From contig JAISEK010000032.1 in the NCBI GenBank assembly GCA_031264145.1, positions 1 to 33,662 on the forward strand: a DNA stretch of 33,662 nt, written 5' to 3'. Below the pieces are notes generated by a model. The model worked only from the letters and a program-made list of their open reading frames with translations. It was not told the DNA's origin and ran no database searches. Position 1 is the stretch's first letter, and every line of letters starts with the position of its first letter. Origin of the DNA: Deltaproteobacteria bacterium. GTDB lineage: Bacteria > Desulfobacterota > Desulfarculia > Adiutricales > Adiutricaceae. A program made the translations under genes and the position numbers. Positions 17,311 to 23,686 of the stretch are shown in pieces.

Positions 17311-18339
17311 TCAACGCCTGGCCCCCGCCAACCGATCCGCGTGCCGATCCATCCGCAGGTGGGTGTAGCGGGCCAGCATCTGGAGGGTTTTGTGGCCGGT
17401 GATGGATTTGATTTCCATCAGGTCCAGGTCGGTGTTCTCGAAGAGGCGGCTGGTGGCCTCGTGGCGCAGGTCGTGGAAGTGGAGGCCTTCGATTCCAGCC
17501 TCGCGGCAGGCCCGGCGCATGGCCTGAGTGATGGCAGAGGGGCTCTGGGTGAAGACGCGGTCGTCCGCTTTCGGCGGGCGGCCGTTTTTCGCGTGCGCGG
17601 CGGCTTGGGCTGACCGGATGGCTTCCAGAATCTCGATAGCCTTGGGCGACAGGGGGAGGGTGCGGGTTTCGCCGTTTTTGGTGACGAAGAGGGTGGCCGT
17701 GCGGCGGTCCAGGTCGATGGCGCTCCAGCATAGGGTGGAAAGATCCTCCCGGCGCATGGCCGTCTCCAGGGCCAGGGCGATGATGAGGCGCATCTCCGGG
17801 CCGGCGGCGGCCAGGAGGCGCTCCTCTTCATCCGCCTCCAGCCGGCGCTCGCGGCCCTTGGGCAGCTTGGGTCGGCTGACGCGGGCCACGGGGTTGACCA
17901 GGCTCTCCATGCTCCAATCACTGGCGGCCACGTTGAACAGCCGTGACAAAAGGGCCAAATCCAGCCGGATGGTGTTGCCCGAGGCCCCTTCGTCCTGCCG
18001 TTCCCTGATGAATTCCGCGATGTCTTTGCCGCGAATCGCGGCCATGAATTTTTCGGCCAGCCGGTGGCGCTGGATCATCCGGGCCTTGTAGACGTTGGTT
18101 TGGCTGTGCGCCAGGCGGGGCAGGTATTCTTCGATATAACGCTCCAGGGCCTCCCGGAGGGTGGTGGTCTCGGCCTCAGTCCGGGAGACGTAGACGCCCC
18201 GGTCCATCTCGGACTCGATCTCCCGCGCCCACTTCTCCGCGTCGAATTTGGTCTCGAACGTCTTGCAGGTGACGGGCATTCCCTTTTTACGGATTCGGAC
18301 TTCCCATTGGTAGGGGCCGCGTTTTCTGATGCTGGCCAT
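17311..18339 (-). CDS. int: tyrosine-type site-specific integrase
   Basis: A complete 342-residue phage-type integrase. The N-terminal arm-binding region (about 1-55, GPYQWEVRIRKKGMPVTCK) is followed by a SAM-like core-binding domain (about 60-165) and the catalytic domain. The catalytic set is present: Arg196 (ETAMRRED), Lys221 (TKNGETR), His289/Arg292 (HDLRHEATS), His316 (GHKTLQML) and Tyr325 (ARYTHLR). It lies next to the tRNA-Arg attachment site and reads away from it, separated by a strong terminator hairpin, so tRNA transcription should not enter int. It almost certainly catalyses integration and excision of the 11321-18474 element. Confidence 0.95.
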   Translation of the reverse strand: MASIRKRGPYQWEVRIRKKGMPVTCKTFETKFDAEKWAREIESEMDRGVYVSRTEAETTTLREALERYIEEYLPRLAHSQTNVYKARMIQRHRLAEKFMAAIRGKDIAEFIRERQDEGASGNTIRLDLALLSRLFNVAASDWSMESLVNPVARVSRPKLPKGRERRLEADEEERLLAAAGPEMRLIIALALETAMRREDLSTLCWSAIDLDRRTATLFVTKNGETRTLPLSPKAIEILEAIRSAQAAAHAKNGRPPKADDRVFTQSPSAITQAMRRACREAGIEGLHFHDLRHEATSRLFENTDLDLMEIKSITGHKTLQMLARYTHLRMDRHADRLAGARR

Positions 18340-18427: not shown

Positions 18428-18474
18428 TGGTGCCCTCGGCGTGACTCGAACACGCGACACCAGGATTAGGAATC
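18428..18474. repeat. right attachment repeat (attR-like), within tRNA-Arg
   Basis: Identical over 47 bp to 11321-11367. It begins exactly at the encoded CCA and ends at the anticodon loop. Confidence 0.93.
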
Positions 18475-18505
18475 CTGTGCTCTATCCTAACTGAGCTACG
18501 AGGGC
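18428..18505 (-). tRNA. tRNA-Arg(CCT)
   Basis: The gene folds as a complete cloverleaf: acceptor GCCCTCG/CGAGGGC, D stem GCTC/GAGC, anticodon arm CAGGA-TTCCTAA-TCCTG with anticodon CCT, T stem GCGTG/CACGC, discriminator A, and an encoded CCA at 18428-18430. It reads AGG, a frequently used arginine codon in the resident genes. Its 3' 47 bases come from the element's attachment site. Confidence 0.96.
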
Positions 18506-19273: not shown

Positions 19274-19302
19274 TTGACAAGGGGACCATCGGGACTTACT
19301 AT
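19274..19302 (+). promoter_or_regulatory. strong sigma-70 promoter before the hydrogenase-maturation genes
   Basis: TTGACA at 19274-19279 and TACTAT at 19297-19302 with an ideal 17-base spacer. The sequence around the -35 (ATGCTTGACAA) is the same as at the tRNA-Ser promoter at 30772. Confidence 0.65.
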
Positions 19303-19308
19303 TCCAAG

Positions 19309-19437
19309 TAGGCCCTTTGACGGTTGTGGGCCTAAGAATTTTTCGACATTGCCAAACCTGACGTCGAGTCAACTTTTCGAGACGGAAGGCGCTAATTGGT
19401 AGTCCAGGCGTCTTTGCATTCAAAGGCGCCTTTTTTT
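19309..19437 (+). ncRNA. candidate leader RNA/attenuator or small RNA
   Basis: From the predicted start near 19309 to the terminator T-tract is about 130 bases. The RNA can form a 6-bp AGGCCC/GGGCCT stem near its 5' end, a TCGAC/GTCGA stem in the middle and the terminator at 19406-19431. A sequence near 19386 (AAGGCGC) can also pair with the terminator's 3' arm (GCGCCTT), an alternative fold that would disrupt termination. It matches no riboswitch family that I recognise. It could regulate the downstream genes or be an independent small RNA. Confidence 0.4.
19406..19437 (+). terminator. rho-independent terminator ending the leader RNA
   Basis: AGGCG-TCTTT pairs with AAAGG-CGCCT around a GCATTC loop and is followed directly by T7 (19431-19437). 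It ends 124 bases before the TM1266-like start codon. Confidence 0.7.
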
Positions 19438-19561
19438 CGCCCGATCACCTCGCCGGAACTCGGCCGCCCGGCGATTGACACATCCGGCTGGCTGCCCTGG
19501 CCGGTGGGCCTCCGGGACCACAGGGGGCCCGGAAAGCCCTGGCCGTAAAGGAGCCCCGCCA

Positions 19562-19822
19562 ATGGATACCAGGGTGGCCATAATCGGCCTGGTGGTCGAG
19601 AACCCAGCTTCGGTCGAGGAGCTTAACCGCGTCCTCCACAACTATTCCGAGTATATAATTGGCCGCATGGGCATCCCCTATAGCCAGCGCAAGATCAACA
19701 TCATCAGCGTGGCCGTGGATGCGCCGGAAAGCGTCATCAGTGCCATCTCGGGCAAGATCGGCAAGCTGCCCGGGGTCACGGCCAAGATAGCCTACTCCAA
19801 TTTCATTAGCAGAACCGACTAG
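19562..19822 (+). CDS. TM1266-type iron-only hydrogenase system regulator
   Basis: An 86-residue ACT/NikR-C-like domain protein. RVAIIGLVVENPASVEELNR, YIIGRMGIPY, INIISVAVDAPESVISAISG and KIGKLPGVTAK match the family named putative iron-only hydrogenase system regulator, which normally neighbours hydE/hydG/hydF. A ligand or DNA target is not established. ATG 19562 has AAAGGAG at 19547-19553; an upstream extension is not credible. It is the first gene after the leader terminator and lies 36 bases before the chosen hydE start. Confidence 0.9.
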   Translation: MDTRVAIIGLVVENPASVEELNRVLHNYSEYIIGRMGIPYSQRKINIISVAVDAPESVISAISGKIGKLPGVTAKIAYSNFISRTD

Positions 19823-19858: not shown

Positions 19859-20932
19859 ATGATTAACAATTATTCATTGGTTGATAGGCTCATGACCGAC
19901 GGCACGCTGTCGCGTCCGGAATTCTTCACCCTCATCGAGGGTCGCACCCCCGAACTCGCCGAGTACCTTTTCGACAAGGCCAGACAGGTGCGCCACGCCG
20001 TGTATGGCAAGGATATTTTCCTTAGAGGCTTGATTGAGTTTACTAATTTTTGCCGCAACGACTGTCTTTATTGTGGCATCCGCAAGAGCAACCTCTCTGC
20101 CGAGCGATACCGTCTAAGCCAGGAGGAGATTCTAGCCTGCTGCCGGCAGGGCCACGAGCTGGGCTTCAGGACCTTCGTTCTCCAGGGCGGGGAGGATCCC
20201 CATTACACCGACGATCGCATGGTCGGGATCGTCAGGGCCATAAGGGCCGCCTACCCCGACTGCGCCATCACCCTGTCCCTGGGCGAACGGGACAGGGAGA
20301 GCTACCGGCGGCTCTTCAGGGCCGGGGCCGAGCGCTACCTTCTGCGCCACGAGACCAGGAACGAGGGGCACTACGCCTATCTACATCCGGCCGGCATGTC
20401 CCTCAGGGATAGGCTTGGCTGCCTGGAGGACCTGCGGTCGATCGGCTACCAGGTCGGTTGCGGCTTCATGGTCGGAAGCCCCGGCCAGACGACCGACTGC
20501 CTGGTCGACGATCTTCTGTTCATCAAGGAGTTCAGGCCACACATGGTCGGCATTGGCCCCTTCATCCCCCACAAGGACACCCCCTTCGCCGGCAGGGAGG
20601 CCGGATCGCTGGAATTGACGGTTTTCCTTCTGGGCATCCTGAGGCTCTTGGATCCCAAGCTCCTGCTTCCGGCCACCACGGCCCTGGGCACCATTTCCCC
20701 GACCGGCCGCGAGATGGGGGTCATGGCCGGGGCCAACGTCATCATGCCCAACCTTTCCCCTGTCGGGGTCAGAAACAAGTATCTGCTTTACGACAACAAG
20801 ATCTGCACGGGAGACGAGGCGGCCGAGTGCCGGTTCTGCATCCAGAGGCGCATGCTCAGCATTGGCTACGACATCGCCGTGACCCGTGGGGATTACGCCG
20901 GCCTCTCCGGCGAGGAGCGACGGGCCGTTTGA
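19859..20932 (+). CDS. hydE: [FeFe]-hydrogenase H-cluster maturation radical SAM enzyme HydE
   Basis: A 357-residue radical SAM enzyme that helps build the 2Fe subcluster of [FeFe] hydrogenase, probably acting on the complex-B intermediate made by HydG. The [4Fe-4S]-SAM motif CRNDCLYC gives Cys65, Cys69 and Cys72. FVLQGGEDPHYTD, RYLLRHETRNEGHYAYLHP and GCGFMVGSPGQTTD are family segments, and the barrel runs to NLSPVGVRNKYLLYDNKICTGDE-like sequence near the end. ATG 19859 is preferred; TTG 19835 in the same frame would add 8 residues and has no ribosome site. The first 150 bases are less GC-rich than the rest. Confidence 0.95.
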   Translation: MINNYSLVDRLMTDGTLSRPEFFTLIEGRTPELAEYLFDKARQVRHAVYGKDIFLRGLIEFTNFCRNDCLYCGIRKSNLSAERYRLSQEEILACCRQGHELGFRTFVLQGGEDPHYTDDRMVGIVRAIRAAYPDCAITLSLGERDRESYRRLFRAGAERYLLRHETRNEGHYAYLHPAGMSLRDRLGCLEDLRSIGYQVGCGFMVGSPGQTTDCLVDDLLFIKEFRPHMVGIGPFIPHKDTPFAGREAGSLELTVFLLGILRLLDPKLLLPATTALGTISPTGREMGVMAGANVIMPNLSPVGVRNKYLLYDNKICTGDEAAECRFCIQRRMLSIGYDIAVTRGDYAGLSGEERRAV

Positions 20933-20994
20933 GCCCTCTACATTGCCATTTCGCTAACGGGGAAGGACAGCCCGACCCGGAAGGAGTTTCAGAA

Positions 20995-22413
20995 ATGTAT
21001 GATCCAAAGTCCAGGAAGGCCACCGAGTTCATCGATCACGGAGAGGTCCTAGACACGCTGGAGTACGCCAGAAAGAACGCCACCAACGCCGCCCTGATTG
21101 GCTCCATACTGGAAAAGGCCAGGAAGCGGAGCGGTCTCACCCACCGTGAGGCCATGGTCCTTCTGGATTGCGGTCTTGATGACAAAAACGAGGAAATCTT
21201 CGCCCTGGCCCGCCAAATCAAGCAGGACTTCTACGGCAACCGCATAGTCATGTTCGCCCCCCTGTATCTTTCCAACTATTGCGTTAATGGCTGCCTGTAC
21301 TGCCCCTACCACCAGAAAAACAAGCACATCGCCCGCAAGAAGCTTTCCCAGGAGGACATCGTCCGTGAGGTCACGGCCCTCCAGGACATGGGGCACAAGC
21401 GCCTGGCCCTGGAGGCCGGCGAGCACCCGACCATCAACCCAATAGAGTATATCCTGGAAAGCATCGGGACCATCTACTCCATCAAGCACAAGAACGGGGC
21501 CATCCGCCGGGTCAACGTCAACATAGCGGCCACGACGGTCGAGAACTACGCGCGGCTCCGGGAGGCCGGCATAGGCACCTACATACTCTTCCAGGAGACC
21601 TACCACCGCAAGAGCTACGAGGAGCTCCACCCCACCGGACCCAAGCACGACTACGCCTGGCACACCGAGGCCATGGACAGGGCCATGGAGGGCGGGATCG
21701 ACGACGTTGGCCTGGGCGTCCTCTTCGGCCTTGAGATGTTCCGTTACGAGTTCGCGGCCCTCCTCATGCACGCCGAGCACCTGGAGGCCGTGCACGGCGT
21801 GGGGCCACACACCATCAGCGTCCCCAGGGTCAGGGCGGCCGACGATATCGACCCCGACCAGTTCGCCAACGGCATCACCGACGACCAGTTCGCCAAGATC
21901 GTGGCCTGCATCCGCATCTCCGTCCCCTACACCGGCATGATCGTCTCCACCAGGGAGAGCAAGGAGTGCCGGGCCCGAGTCCTGGATCTGGGAATCTCCC
22001 AGATCAGCGGGGGCAGCCGGACGAGCGTCGGCGGCTACTACGAGCCCGAGGCCGAGGAGGACGATTCCAGGCAGTTCGAGGTCAGCGACAACCGGAGCCT
22101 CGACGAGGTCATCGGCTGGCTGATGGAGCTGGGGCACATCCCCAGCTTCTGCACGGCCTGCTACCGGGAAGGCCGGACCGGGGACAGGTTCATGGCCCTG
22201 TGCAAGAGCGGCAAGATCCTCAACTGCTGCCATCCCAACGCCTTGATGACCCTCAAGGAGTACCTCATGGACTATGCCTCGCCCCACACGGCCAGGCTGG
22301 GCAACGCCCTGATCGAGACGGAGATCAACCAGGTCCCCAACCTCAAGATCCGGGCCCTGGTGGCCGACCATCTCACGGCCATCCAGCACGGGGATCGCGA
22401 TTTTAGGCTATAG
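20995..22413 (+). CDS. hydG: [FeFe]-hydrogenase maturation tyrosine lyase HydG
   Basis: A 472-residue radical SAM enzyme that cleaves tyrosine to supply CO and cyanide for the H cluster. The SAM cluster motif CVNGCLYC gives Cys96, Cys100 and Cys103. The auxiliary cluster motif CTAC...C is exact: Cys386, Cys389 and Cys412, in the CX2CX22C spacing of HydG. This distinguishes it from ThiH. ATG 20995 has AAGGAG at 20981-20986. It is 62 bases after hydE and ends just before a strong terminator, so TM1266-like, hydE and hydG form one unit. hydF and the hydrogenase itself are not in the window. Confidence 0.97.
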   Translation: MYDPKSRKATEFIDHGEVLDTLEYARKNATNAALIGSILEKARKRSGLTHREAMVLLDCGLDDKNEEIFALARQIKQDFYGNRIVMFAPLYLSNYCVNGCLYCPYHQKNKHIARKKLSQEDIVREVTALQDMGHKRLALEAGEHPTINPIEYILESIGTIYSIKHKNGAIRRVNVNIAATTVENYARLREAGIGTYILFQETYHRKSYEELHPTGPKHDYAWHTEAMDRAMEGGIDDVGLGVLFGLEMFRYEFAALLMHAEHLEAVHGVGPHTISVPRVRAADDIDPDQFANGITDDQFAKIVACIRISVPYTGMIVSTRESKECRARVLDLGISQISGGSRTSVGGYYEPEAEEDDSRQFEVSDNRSLDEVIGWLMELGHIPSFCTACYREGRTGDRFMALCKSGKILNCCHPNALMTLKEYLMDYASPHTARLGNALIETEINQVPNLKIRALVADHLTAIQHGDRDFRL

Positions 22414-22511: not shown

Positions 22512-22918
22512 GATCCGGCCTCCAGCCGTGTGGACGGGCTCCAGGGGACGGTCCTGGCGGGTCGGGGTTACCCGCCTGGTCATAAATTATAAAAAAAGAT
22601 CCTCTTGGCATATAAAATATTTATTAAACGGTATTATATGTATTATTATGGCGATTTTAATGATAGTCTGGCCCCTGGCCTGACCTCTGGGAGGCACCGC
22701 CGAGGCCTTGGGCAAAAATGAAAAAAGTCAAAATACATGGATATTCCCGATAGGGTGGCCAGCTAGTGGGGCCAGAAGCCTGGTAATTCTTGACTTTTTT
22801 GTTTGACAAATATTTTTGATTAATGTTAACGAAAGGTTATATTTTTAGGTTGGTCTTGACATTTTACTTCACTGTGGGAAAATAGCCCCTAGCAAAATTG
22901 GGTCACACGAGGTCACTT
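22512..22918. other. intergenic, AT-rich toward the integrase remnant
   Basis: No supported gene. Two TTGACA hexamers occur, at 22803-22808 and 22856-22861. The second has AAAATA 17 bases on and could drive the downstream integrase fragment, but neither -10 is good. Confidence 0.4.
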
Positions 22919-23686
22919 ATGACAAAAATTAACCGTGCTATTTTAGATGGGCTCAAACCGGCGGCCAAAAGTTACCGCATGGCCGCCGGCGGCCAGCCAG
23001 GCTTGTTTTTGGAGGTGTTGCCGAGCGGCTTGAAGAAATGGCGTCTCAGGGCCAGGGCCATGGGCCGGTCAATGCAGGCGACTTTGGGCTCCTTTCCCGA
23101 GCTGGGTCTTTTGGCGGCCAGGGAGAAGGCCGCCAAGCTCCTGGAGGAGGGCCCGTTGAACCCCAACAGGGCCCAAAAGATTTGTTCTTTTGGCGATTTG
23201 TCCTGCGCCTGGCTGGGCCACAACGGCGACAAGCGCTGGAGCACCGGCTTCAGGCACACCATTAGCCTCCTGAAGTCCAACATCCTGCCTTCGTTGGGCC
23301 GTCAGTCCCTGGGAGACATCTCGCCCTCGACCATCGTCCTGGACCTCCTCAAACCACTGGTGGAGAGGGGCGGCATCGATCTGGCCAACTCGGCCCTGAA
23401 GGTCTGCCGGCTCATTTTCCGTTTTGGCCTTTCCCAGGGCCATCTGGAGTCCGATCCGACCGATAGCCTGCCTGAGTTCGACTCCAAGACCATTACCTGC
23501 CAGATCGTCCCCAACATCGATCCCAACGTCGCCCCTAGCCTTGATCCCGTTGGGCTGGCCTATCCCAGGGTCAATCACGCGACCGCCGAACACCGGCACC
23601 CGGAGAAGGCCCATCATTACCATGTCAAGCGCAACCCACTTTTGCTGACCAACTTCCTCAGCCAGCCCCAGACCGGCAAGAGGTAG
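22919..23686 (+). pseudogene. P4-type integrase fragment lacking the catalytic domain
   Basis: The 255-residue product begins with a DUF4102-type arm-binding domain: LKPAAKSYRMAAGGQPGLFLEVLPSG and WRLRARAMGRSMQATLGSFPELGLLAAREKA without a break. A core-binding-like domain follows (NILPSLGRQSLGDISP, NSALKVCRLIFRFGLSQG). The catalytic domain (Arg, HxxR, Tyr) is absent. The last 70 residues are unrelated Pro/His-rich sequence up to the stop. Intact relatives are about 400 residues. ATG 22919 has GAGG 6 bases upstream; a TTG at 22898 is less likely. It is probably a remnant, though a DNA-binding-only regulator cannot be excluded. Confidence 0.7.

Follow-up and report, generated by a model that had tools for sequence, protein, structure and literature searches.

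The leader of the TM1266-hydE-hydG operon in a Deltaproteobacteria bacterium is probably a cis-acting transcription attenuator that belongs to a new RNA class of the [FeFe]-hydrogenase H-cluster maturation regulon, a strand-swapped copy at the hydG site included. The computed support consists of a paired and conserved core, its association with particular genes, a terminator, and coevolution of the two RNA strands called 2 and 3 below. The H-cluster, the product of HydE, HydF and HydG, is an iron cofactor that carries CO and cyanide, and we know of no settled account of how its supply is controlled in cells. With a 31-nt RNA identified in front of these genes in two phyla, both this control and the action of TM1266 become testable. 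The window, meaning the whole stretch of DNA analysed (33,662 nt of contig JAISEK010000032.1), contains the following features.

19274-19302, plus strand: sigma-70-type promoter, TTGACA-17-TACTAT, with 10 of 12 consensus matches
19309-19334, plus strand: 5' hairpin TAGGCCC..GGGCCTA, from the fold; analogues of differing sequence seen by eye in near relatives
19345-19404, plus strand: outer stem 19345-19355/19396-19404 around the core, from the minimum-energy fold
19358-19388, plus strand: conserved core hairpin, A form, 31 nt, from alignments and pair counts; match to model R3 of 36.9 bits, E 2.4e-9, the window itself being one of R3's rows
19385-19392, plus strand: antiterminator strand GAAGGCGC, able to pair with 19408-19415, from the pairing test and step-wise folds
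19406-19438, plus strand: intrinsic terminator, an 11-bp hairpin (19406-19431) followed by T7, from the terminator scan
19562-19822, plus strand: TM1266-like protein (TIGR03959, PF21699), profile match over the curated cut-off
19859-20932, plus strand: hydE (TIGR03956), profile match over the curated cut-off
20954-20983, plus strand: B-form copy CTAACGGGGAAG-GACAGC-CCGACCCGGAAG, from the descriptor; its 3' end overlaps the hydG Shine-Dalgarno sequence AAGGAG (20981-20986)
20995-22413, plus strand: hydG (TIGR03955), profile match over the curated cut-off as 20980-22413, the start codon being read from the sequence

As expected of an attenuator, an intrinsic terminator lies between the promoter and the first gene, and the gene order behind the leader is TM1266-hydE-hydG. 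The initial annotation had called the promoter near-perfect; the promoter itself holds up, and since 10 of 12 positions match we grade it as good rather than near-perfect. Promoter-like sites number nine in 6 kb versus 2.4 expected, and of 25 related sequences, 23 show a promoter with at least 9 of 12 matches 5' of the motif, where shuffles predict 3.3. An independent promoter just 5' of 19562 would speak against control by the leader; the promoter scan found no promoter-like site in 19303-19562. The strong terminator proposed to end an RNA of about 130 nt was borne out by its 11 pairs and T7: the 19406-19431 hairpin has the highest pair number among nine terminator-like sites in 6 kb, a count of sites little above the 6.4 expected. 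The RNA 19309-19438 folds with an energy of -44.2 kcal/mol (z -2.9), and outer stems of different sequence were seen by eye in other genera. Two integrase-type genes and a tRNA frame the operon (17314-18339, minus strand; 18431-18505, minus strand; 22898-23683, plus strand), so the segment may belong, or may once have belonged, to a mobile region.

Beyond what the initial annotation had described, the conserved unit proved to be the hairpin 19358-19388, with a second copy at 20954-20983. These two are the sole descriptor matches on both strands of the window, with 0.01 and 0.00 expected, the B descriptor having been broadened after the copy at 20954-20983 had been seen. The core consists of four pairs between two 2x2 purine loops, closed by a conserved C-G and a conserved U-A pair and topped by a variable upper hairpin; its strands read CU-[GA]-N4-[NA]-R and Y-[GA]-N4-[GA]-AG. 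In the window the pairs are 19358/19388, 19359/19387, 19362-19365/19381-19384 and 19368/19378, and the purine loops are 19360-61/19385-86 and 19366-67/19379-80. The loops and their flanking pairs are kept in sequence across two phyla, and a conserved, covarying, aptamer-like core before related genes is also what is expected of a riboswitch.

Covariation supports the pairing. Among 25 sequences, columns 17-45 (UA 13, CG 10), 21-41 (GC 16, AU 8) and 22-40 (AU 11, GC 9) covary; the descriptor that collected them required three of the four central pairs, columns 21-41 and 22-40 not being required, and some sequences were added by eye. As the collecting models and descriptors favour central pairs, the counts for these pairs lean towards structure. 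In alignment A7, comprising 49 sequences with 24 from outside the window's class, 89.8% of 441 cells are paired and 72 cells show double changes, compared with 24.5 in shuffled and at most 18 in slid controls, a count that leans towards structure since the 24 outside rows were found with model R2. A7 leaves out L182 and L132 (copies of family members), R2 matches outside the 5' region and odd matches such as L153; alignment A5 leaves out L047 and L051 (odd or degenerate), and alignment A9 leaves out L178, a near copy of L177.

Within the window's family, the RNA accompanies TM1266 closely. BLASTN of the leader against 97 relatives' genomes returned five matches (E <= 4.3e-5), all in the window's family and directly upstream of TM1266, and common to these five relatives, with small changes, is ACCTGACGTYGAG...CGAGACGGAAGGCGC. 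Of the 37 family genomes, 27 carry TM1266, which stands at 29 places in all, and reading of the leaders found the core hairpin at 26 of the 29, L047 and L051 being the odd or degenerate ones among them; by eye, the hairpin was not seen in the leaders of L022 and L050. The model search added one copy, farther upstream, in genome G031. There, the RNA and TM1266 are some 400 bases apart (L036, G031:C128), with many short CCGGAA-type repeats in the interval, and a second TM1266 copy with a degenerate leader lies about 7 kb away.

Searched over 63 genomes of the class, model R2 gave 26 top matches (E <= 1.3e-6), one per genome and all upstream of TM1266, which cover 25 of the 27 TM1266-bearing family genomes plus one genome of another family. 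No R2 match below 1e-4 came from the ten genomes of the family that lack TM1266. Since 25 of the 26 matches are R2's own rows, the exception being G031, the class search shows mainly the lack of other strong copies, plus one new copy. Two weak class matches were rejected, one inside coding sequence (L102) and one lacking a fitting gene (L103). Over 395 genomes of the phylum at E <= 0.01, R2 matched in 35, and only six of the matches are leaders, all of them model rows. We inspected 24 weak phylum loci (L058-L081) and discarded them, as TM1266 follows none by eye and most lie in coding sequence. At a TM1266 locus from another class of the phylum (L111), short CUGAG..AAGGG repeats stand in place of the swapped-strand leader described below.

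The RNA also extends to Bacillota, a phylum with no rows in model R2. Within the best 80 of at least 587 TM1266 matches, R2 found 21 matches (E <= 1.3e-4). Each lies in the 5' region of TM1266, and 19 come from outside the window's family, among them Desulfosporosinus, an Acidaminococcaceae MAG and Loigolactobacillus rennini. Among the matches listed, 97 TM1266 loci lie outside the window's class; just 25 of these match model R3 at E <= 2.2e-5, with 24 of the 25 being R3's own rows, and most named Bacillota TM1266 loci have no strong match. By eye, five loci show divergent leaders upstream of TM1266, with two CUGACG..GGAAG-like strands and a weak R3 match or none (L147, L150, L155, L158, L184).

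In 61 genomes of the Desulfosporosinus order, R3 gave ten matches at E <= 9e-7, all before TM1266, and four weaker matches, none before TM1266. Six candidates (L217, L218, L228-L231) were rejected, TM1266 not being downstream. In 341 Clostridia genomes, R3 matched once in each of 27 genomes (E <= 1e-4), and one of these matches (L210) is an R3 row. By NCBIfam, 20 of the 27 stand directly before TM1266, one before hydF, two before hydE and four before hydG. This direct placement before hydE, hydF and hydG as well indicates that the RNA marks the H-cluster maturation regulon and not one gene. Profile placement further showed TM1266 adjoining the RNA, on either side, in 24 of the 27 loci; of the seven RNAs before hydF, hydE or hydG, four have TM1266 just upstream of the RNA. 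The profile found no TM1266 within the 3-kb loci L239, L243 and L245. Genome G636, read almost whole, has a single TM1266, next to the RNA.

The second half of the proposed attenuator is the competition for the terminator. The segment AAGGCGC, proposed near 19386 as a competitor for the terminator arm, was located at 19386-19392, where it pairs with 19408-19414. Of the growing transcripts that we folded, those ending at 19416, 19420 and 19424 have the antiterminator as their minimum, and those ending at 19428 or beyond the terminator; in the full-length RNA, forcing the antiterminator costs 5.2 kcal/mol. We then examined 81 loci, namely the model matches plus L047, with near-identical ones omitted (among them L210-L215, L220, L221, L227, L249 and L255). 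A terminator-like hairpin lies 3' of the core in 80 of the 81 by scan, and at a single score cut-off 75 of the 81 have a strong one, versus 27 of 243 dinucleotide shuffles. Some of the terminator picks are wrong by eye (L137, L176, L236).

The strand 3' of the core coevolves with the 5' arm of the terminator between loci. For 78 loci, left after dropping L246 (terminator not found) and L247 and L250 (weak), we computed how well a 20-nt segment spanning GGAAG pairs with the terminator's 5' arm from the same locus. The mean pairing energy was -12.8 kcal/mol for native partners versus -9.5 kcal/mol for permuted ones, with 0 of 10,000 permutations as low, a test that related loci inflate; individually, 42 of the 78 loci beat 95% of letter shuffles. 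The complementary strands themselves differ between loci, for example GGCCGAAG:CUUCGGCC in L026, GCAAGGC:GCCUUGC in L031 and GAUACAG:CUGUAUC in L163. The antiterminator is thus mutually exclusive with the terminator and kept by covariation. The alternative pairings that the initial annotation had singled out for a check in relatives are kept and covary, both within the core and between its 3' strand and the terminator arm, and transcription attenuation of TM1266-hydE-hydG, suggested there, is accordingly the best reading.

The copy at 20954-20983 carries the same plan with the strands in reverse order. It sits between the hydE stop (20932) and the hydG ATG (20995), and its 3' strand runs into the hydG Shine-Dalgarno sequence. 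A descriptor scan of 1.71 Mb over both strands gave 141 A-form matches and 4 in shuffles; for the reverse order it gave 32 and 2, several of the 32 being re-read A forms or coding sequence. The swapped form is itself the TM1266 leader in 11 of 19 over-cut-off loci from other classes of the phylum (L106, L107, L109, L110 and L112-L118, all upstream of TM1266). We considered these leaders as an unrelated element and rejected the idea, as folding gave the core's plan with its strands exchanged: stem, 2x2 loop, 3-4 pairs, 2x2 loop, stem.

A copy at the hydG site was found by eye in 14 of the 19 window-family loci with a located hydG start, and by the strict descriptor in 12 of 38 named loci, with 0.0 expected and further ones seen by eye. 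Across 35 chosen hydG-site copies, 88.9% of cells pair and double changes number 13 versus 2.8 in shuffled sequences; two of the eight pairs fail, in 8 and 11 of the 35 sequences. Compared with shuffles, the hydG-site hairpin of the window shows no gain in stability (z -0.43).

These elements suggest a three-strand switch. Strand 2 (GGAAG and the next nucleotides) could pair with strand 1 to form the core hairpin, an anti-antiterminator, or alternatively with strand 3, the terminator 5' arm, to form the antiterminator. A reader holding the core hairpin would leave strand 3 free, the terminator would form and the operon would be off; with no reader, strand 2 would take strand 3 and RNA polymerase would continue into TM1266-hydE-hydG. 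It is from this anti-antiterminator/antiterminator/terminator plan that a reader holding the core is predicted to switch the operon off. Since the full-length RNA, with no reader bound, is most stable with the terminator formed, the switch may alternatively terminate by default and be turned on by the reader. In the preferred OFF scheme, the B copy over the hydG ribosome-binding site would probably lower hydG translation under the same condition.

None of the known systems compared here matches this arrangement. The initial annotation had recognised no known riboswitch class, in agreement with Rfam 15, which gave no match on the window leader at gathering; relaxing the cut-off to E up to 10 brought up a single miRNA match, on the opposite strand and attributed to chance. 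Gathering-level matches were likewise absent from 14 other TM1266 loci and 16 Bacillota loci; six of the latter, searched at E up to 1, gave two chance matches, neither on the core, and no Rfam match was found for the swapped-strand TM1266 leaders. T-box, peptide attenuator and known riboswitches were set aside, an Rfam match and a leader ATG both being absent.

The closest parallel is the PyrR attenuator of Bacillus pyr operons, whose leader is an Rfam family. There, too, an anti-antiterminator hairpin has a 3' strand that alternates with the terminator 5' arm, and the regulon holds several copies; the small regulator binding the PyrR hairpin is the operon's first gene, the place that the putative reader TM1266 takes here. 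The core sequence differs, however, and the PyrR leader family leaves the core of the window and of the Bacillota loci unmatched; moreover, the putative protein is TM1266-like, the genes are those of H-cluster maturation, and a swapped-strand copy lies on a ribosome-binding site. The RAT hairpins of LicT, SacY and BglG share a length of about 30 nt, two internal loops, pseudo-two-fold symmetry and an adjacent terminator. Yet RAT overlaps and prevents the terminator, whereas here the core (19358-19388) lies upstream of the terminator (19406-19431) and pairs with its arm through the 3' strand. A CAT RNA-binding domain was not found in the operon, where TM1266 matches PF21699 only and the other genes are hydE and hydG. 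A Moco RNA, identified through Rfam, precedes a hydrogenase cluster of Eubacterium limosum (PMC5651825). This resembles our case as a conserved leader RNA before hydrogenase-related genes; unlike it, our RNA has no Rfam match, precedes [FeFe] hydrogenase maturases and has a 31-nt hairpin as its core. In the accessible portions of the literature searched, mainly open-access articles and including PMC3543383, PMC5651825 and PMC6239172, the RNA element is undescribed, and it is apparently an undescribed regulatory RNA class.

Of the inferred parts of our explanation, the identity of the reader is the weakest. The TM1266 protein, acting in a PyrR-like manner on the pseudo-two-fold symmetric RNA, comes close to an even chance of being the reader. 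This small protein consists of one domain, carries the annotation of a putative regulator of iron-only hydrogenase systems and, to our knowledge, has no DNA-binding domain; a relative in the PDB (2nzc, 'hypothetical protein') has four chains. In most loci its gene neighbours the RNA, and a pseudo-symmetric RNA suits a protein dimer. No stated mode of action for TM1266 was found in the literature searched. More speculatively, and somewhat doubtful as a whole, TM1266 might be an RNA-binding sensor of H-cluster assembly, responding to an organometallic intermediate, iron, CO or cyanide, and acting at leader termination and hydG translation via one symmetric core in two strand orders. A small molecule of the H-cluster pathway is a serious minority candidate, and is nearly as likely as TM1266 because the RNA directly serves hydE, hydF and hydG as well as TM1266-transporter operons. 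The core would then be a metabolite riboswitch, a possibility of the same modest weight, binding for instance iron, S-adenosylmethionine or an H-cluster intermediate such as the HydG product, with no protein involved. Its conservation in two phyla, its occurrence before hydE, hydF, hydG and TM1266 alike, the three Clostridia loci without a nearby TM1266, and its position before TM1266 operons with ABC transporters (L139, L173, L186, L171, L189, L190), as often seen in riboswitch regulons, all fit this reading. Nevertheless, a plain hairpin with pseudo-two-fold symmetry and swapped-strand forms looks more like a protein site, TM1266 adjoins the RNA in 24 of 27 Clostridia loci, and within the family 25 of the 27 TM1266-bearing genomes have the RNA, as against 0 of the 10 that lack TM1266.

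The remaining explanations fare worse. The promoter and terminator frame a 130-nt unit, and a terminated RNA would be made in either case, as for a free-standing, trans-acting small RNA whose place before the hyd genes is incidental; the orphan copy near an integrase gene in Loigolactobacillus rennini would also fit. All 27 strong Clostridia matches and all 26 class matches stand before maturation genes, however, and the copy at the hydG ribosome-binding site is inside the operon. This conserved placement favours cis action, and we regard a free small RNA as unlikely. Constitutive insulation, with a terminator that merely damps transcription, a core that is a structural spacer and no reader, draws on the fact that the terminator wins the full-length fold without a ligand; it is very unlikely, given that a spacer would have no need of the sequence conservation that the core's purine loops and flanking pairs show across phyla. 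The three-strand layout also resembles amino-acid attenuators, yet 19309-19438 contains no ATG and the core is conserved as RNA, not as codons, so that ribosome-coupled attenuation by a leader peptide is highly improbable.

If our reading of the leader as a cis-acting attenuator is true, it adds a regulatory RNA class, with swapped-strand forms and with transcription and translation control in one operon. The RNA would also serve as a marker of the maturation regulon, even for operons that seem to have something else in place of HydG. In Loigolactobacillus rennini DSM 20253, an isolate (L262), and in two Bacillota MAGs (L263, L266), the RNA leads TM1266-FecCD-ABC ATPase-HydE, with genes for nitrogenase-like proteins behind: L266 and, by eye, L262 show a NifH-like protein, and L263 and L266 have two PF00148 proteins. 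By cut-off, all three genomes are HydG-less; HydA exceeds the cut-off in Loigolactobacillus rennini and the L266 genome and does not in the L263 genome. Of 12 genomes chosen for a TM1266 followed by transporters, or by hydF (L163), seven have a HydA above the cut-off and a single one a HydG, so that in the sequence available six show HydA without HydG. The nitrogenase-like operon may supply the diatomic ligands in place of HydG, or it may import a precursor. At five loci (L134, L146, L173, L198, L202), the genes behind TM1266 encode sulfonate-type ABC transporters or an ECF S component. The orphan A-form copy of Loigolactobacillus rennini (L216:1500-1600; 35 bits) has a terminator-like tail, lies near an integrase-like gene and has no gene directly 3' of the RNA.
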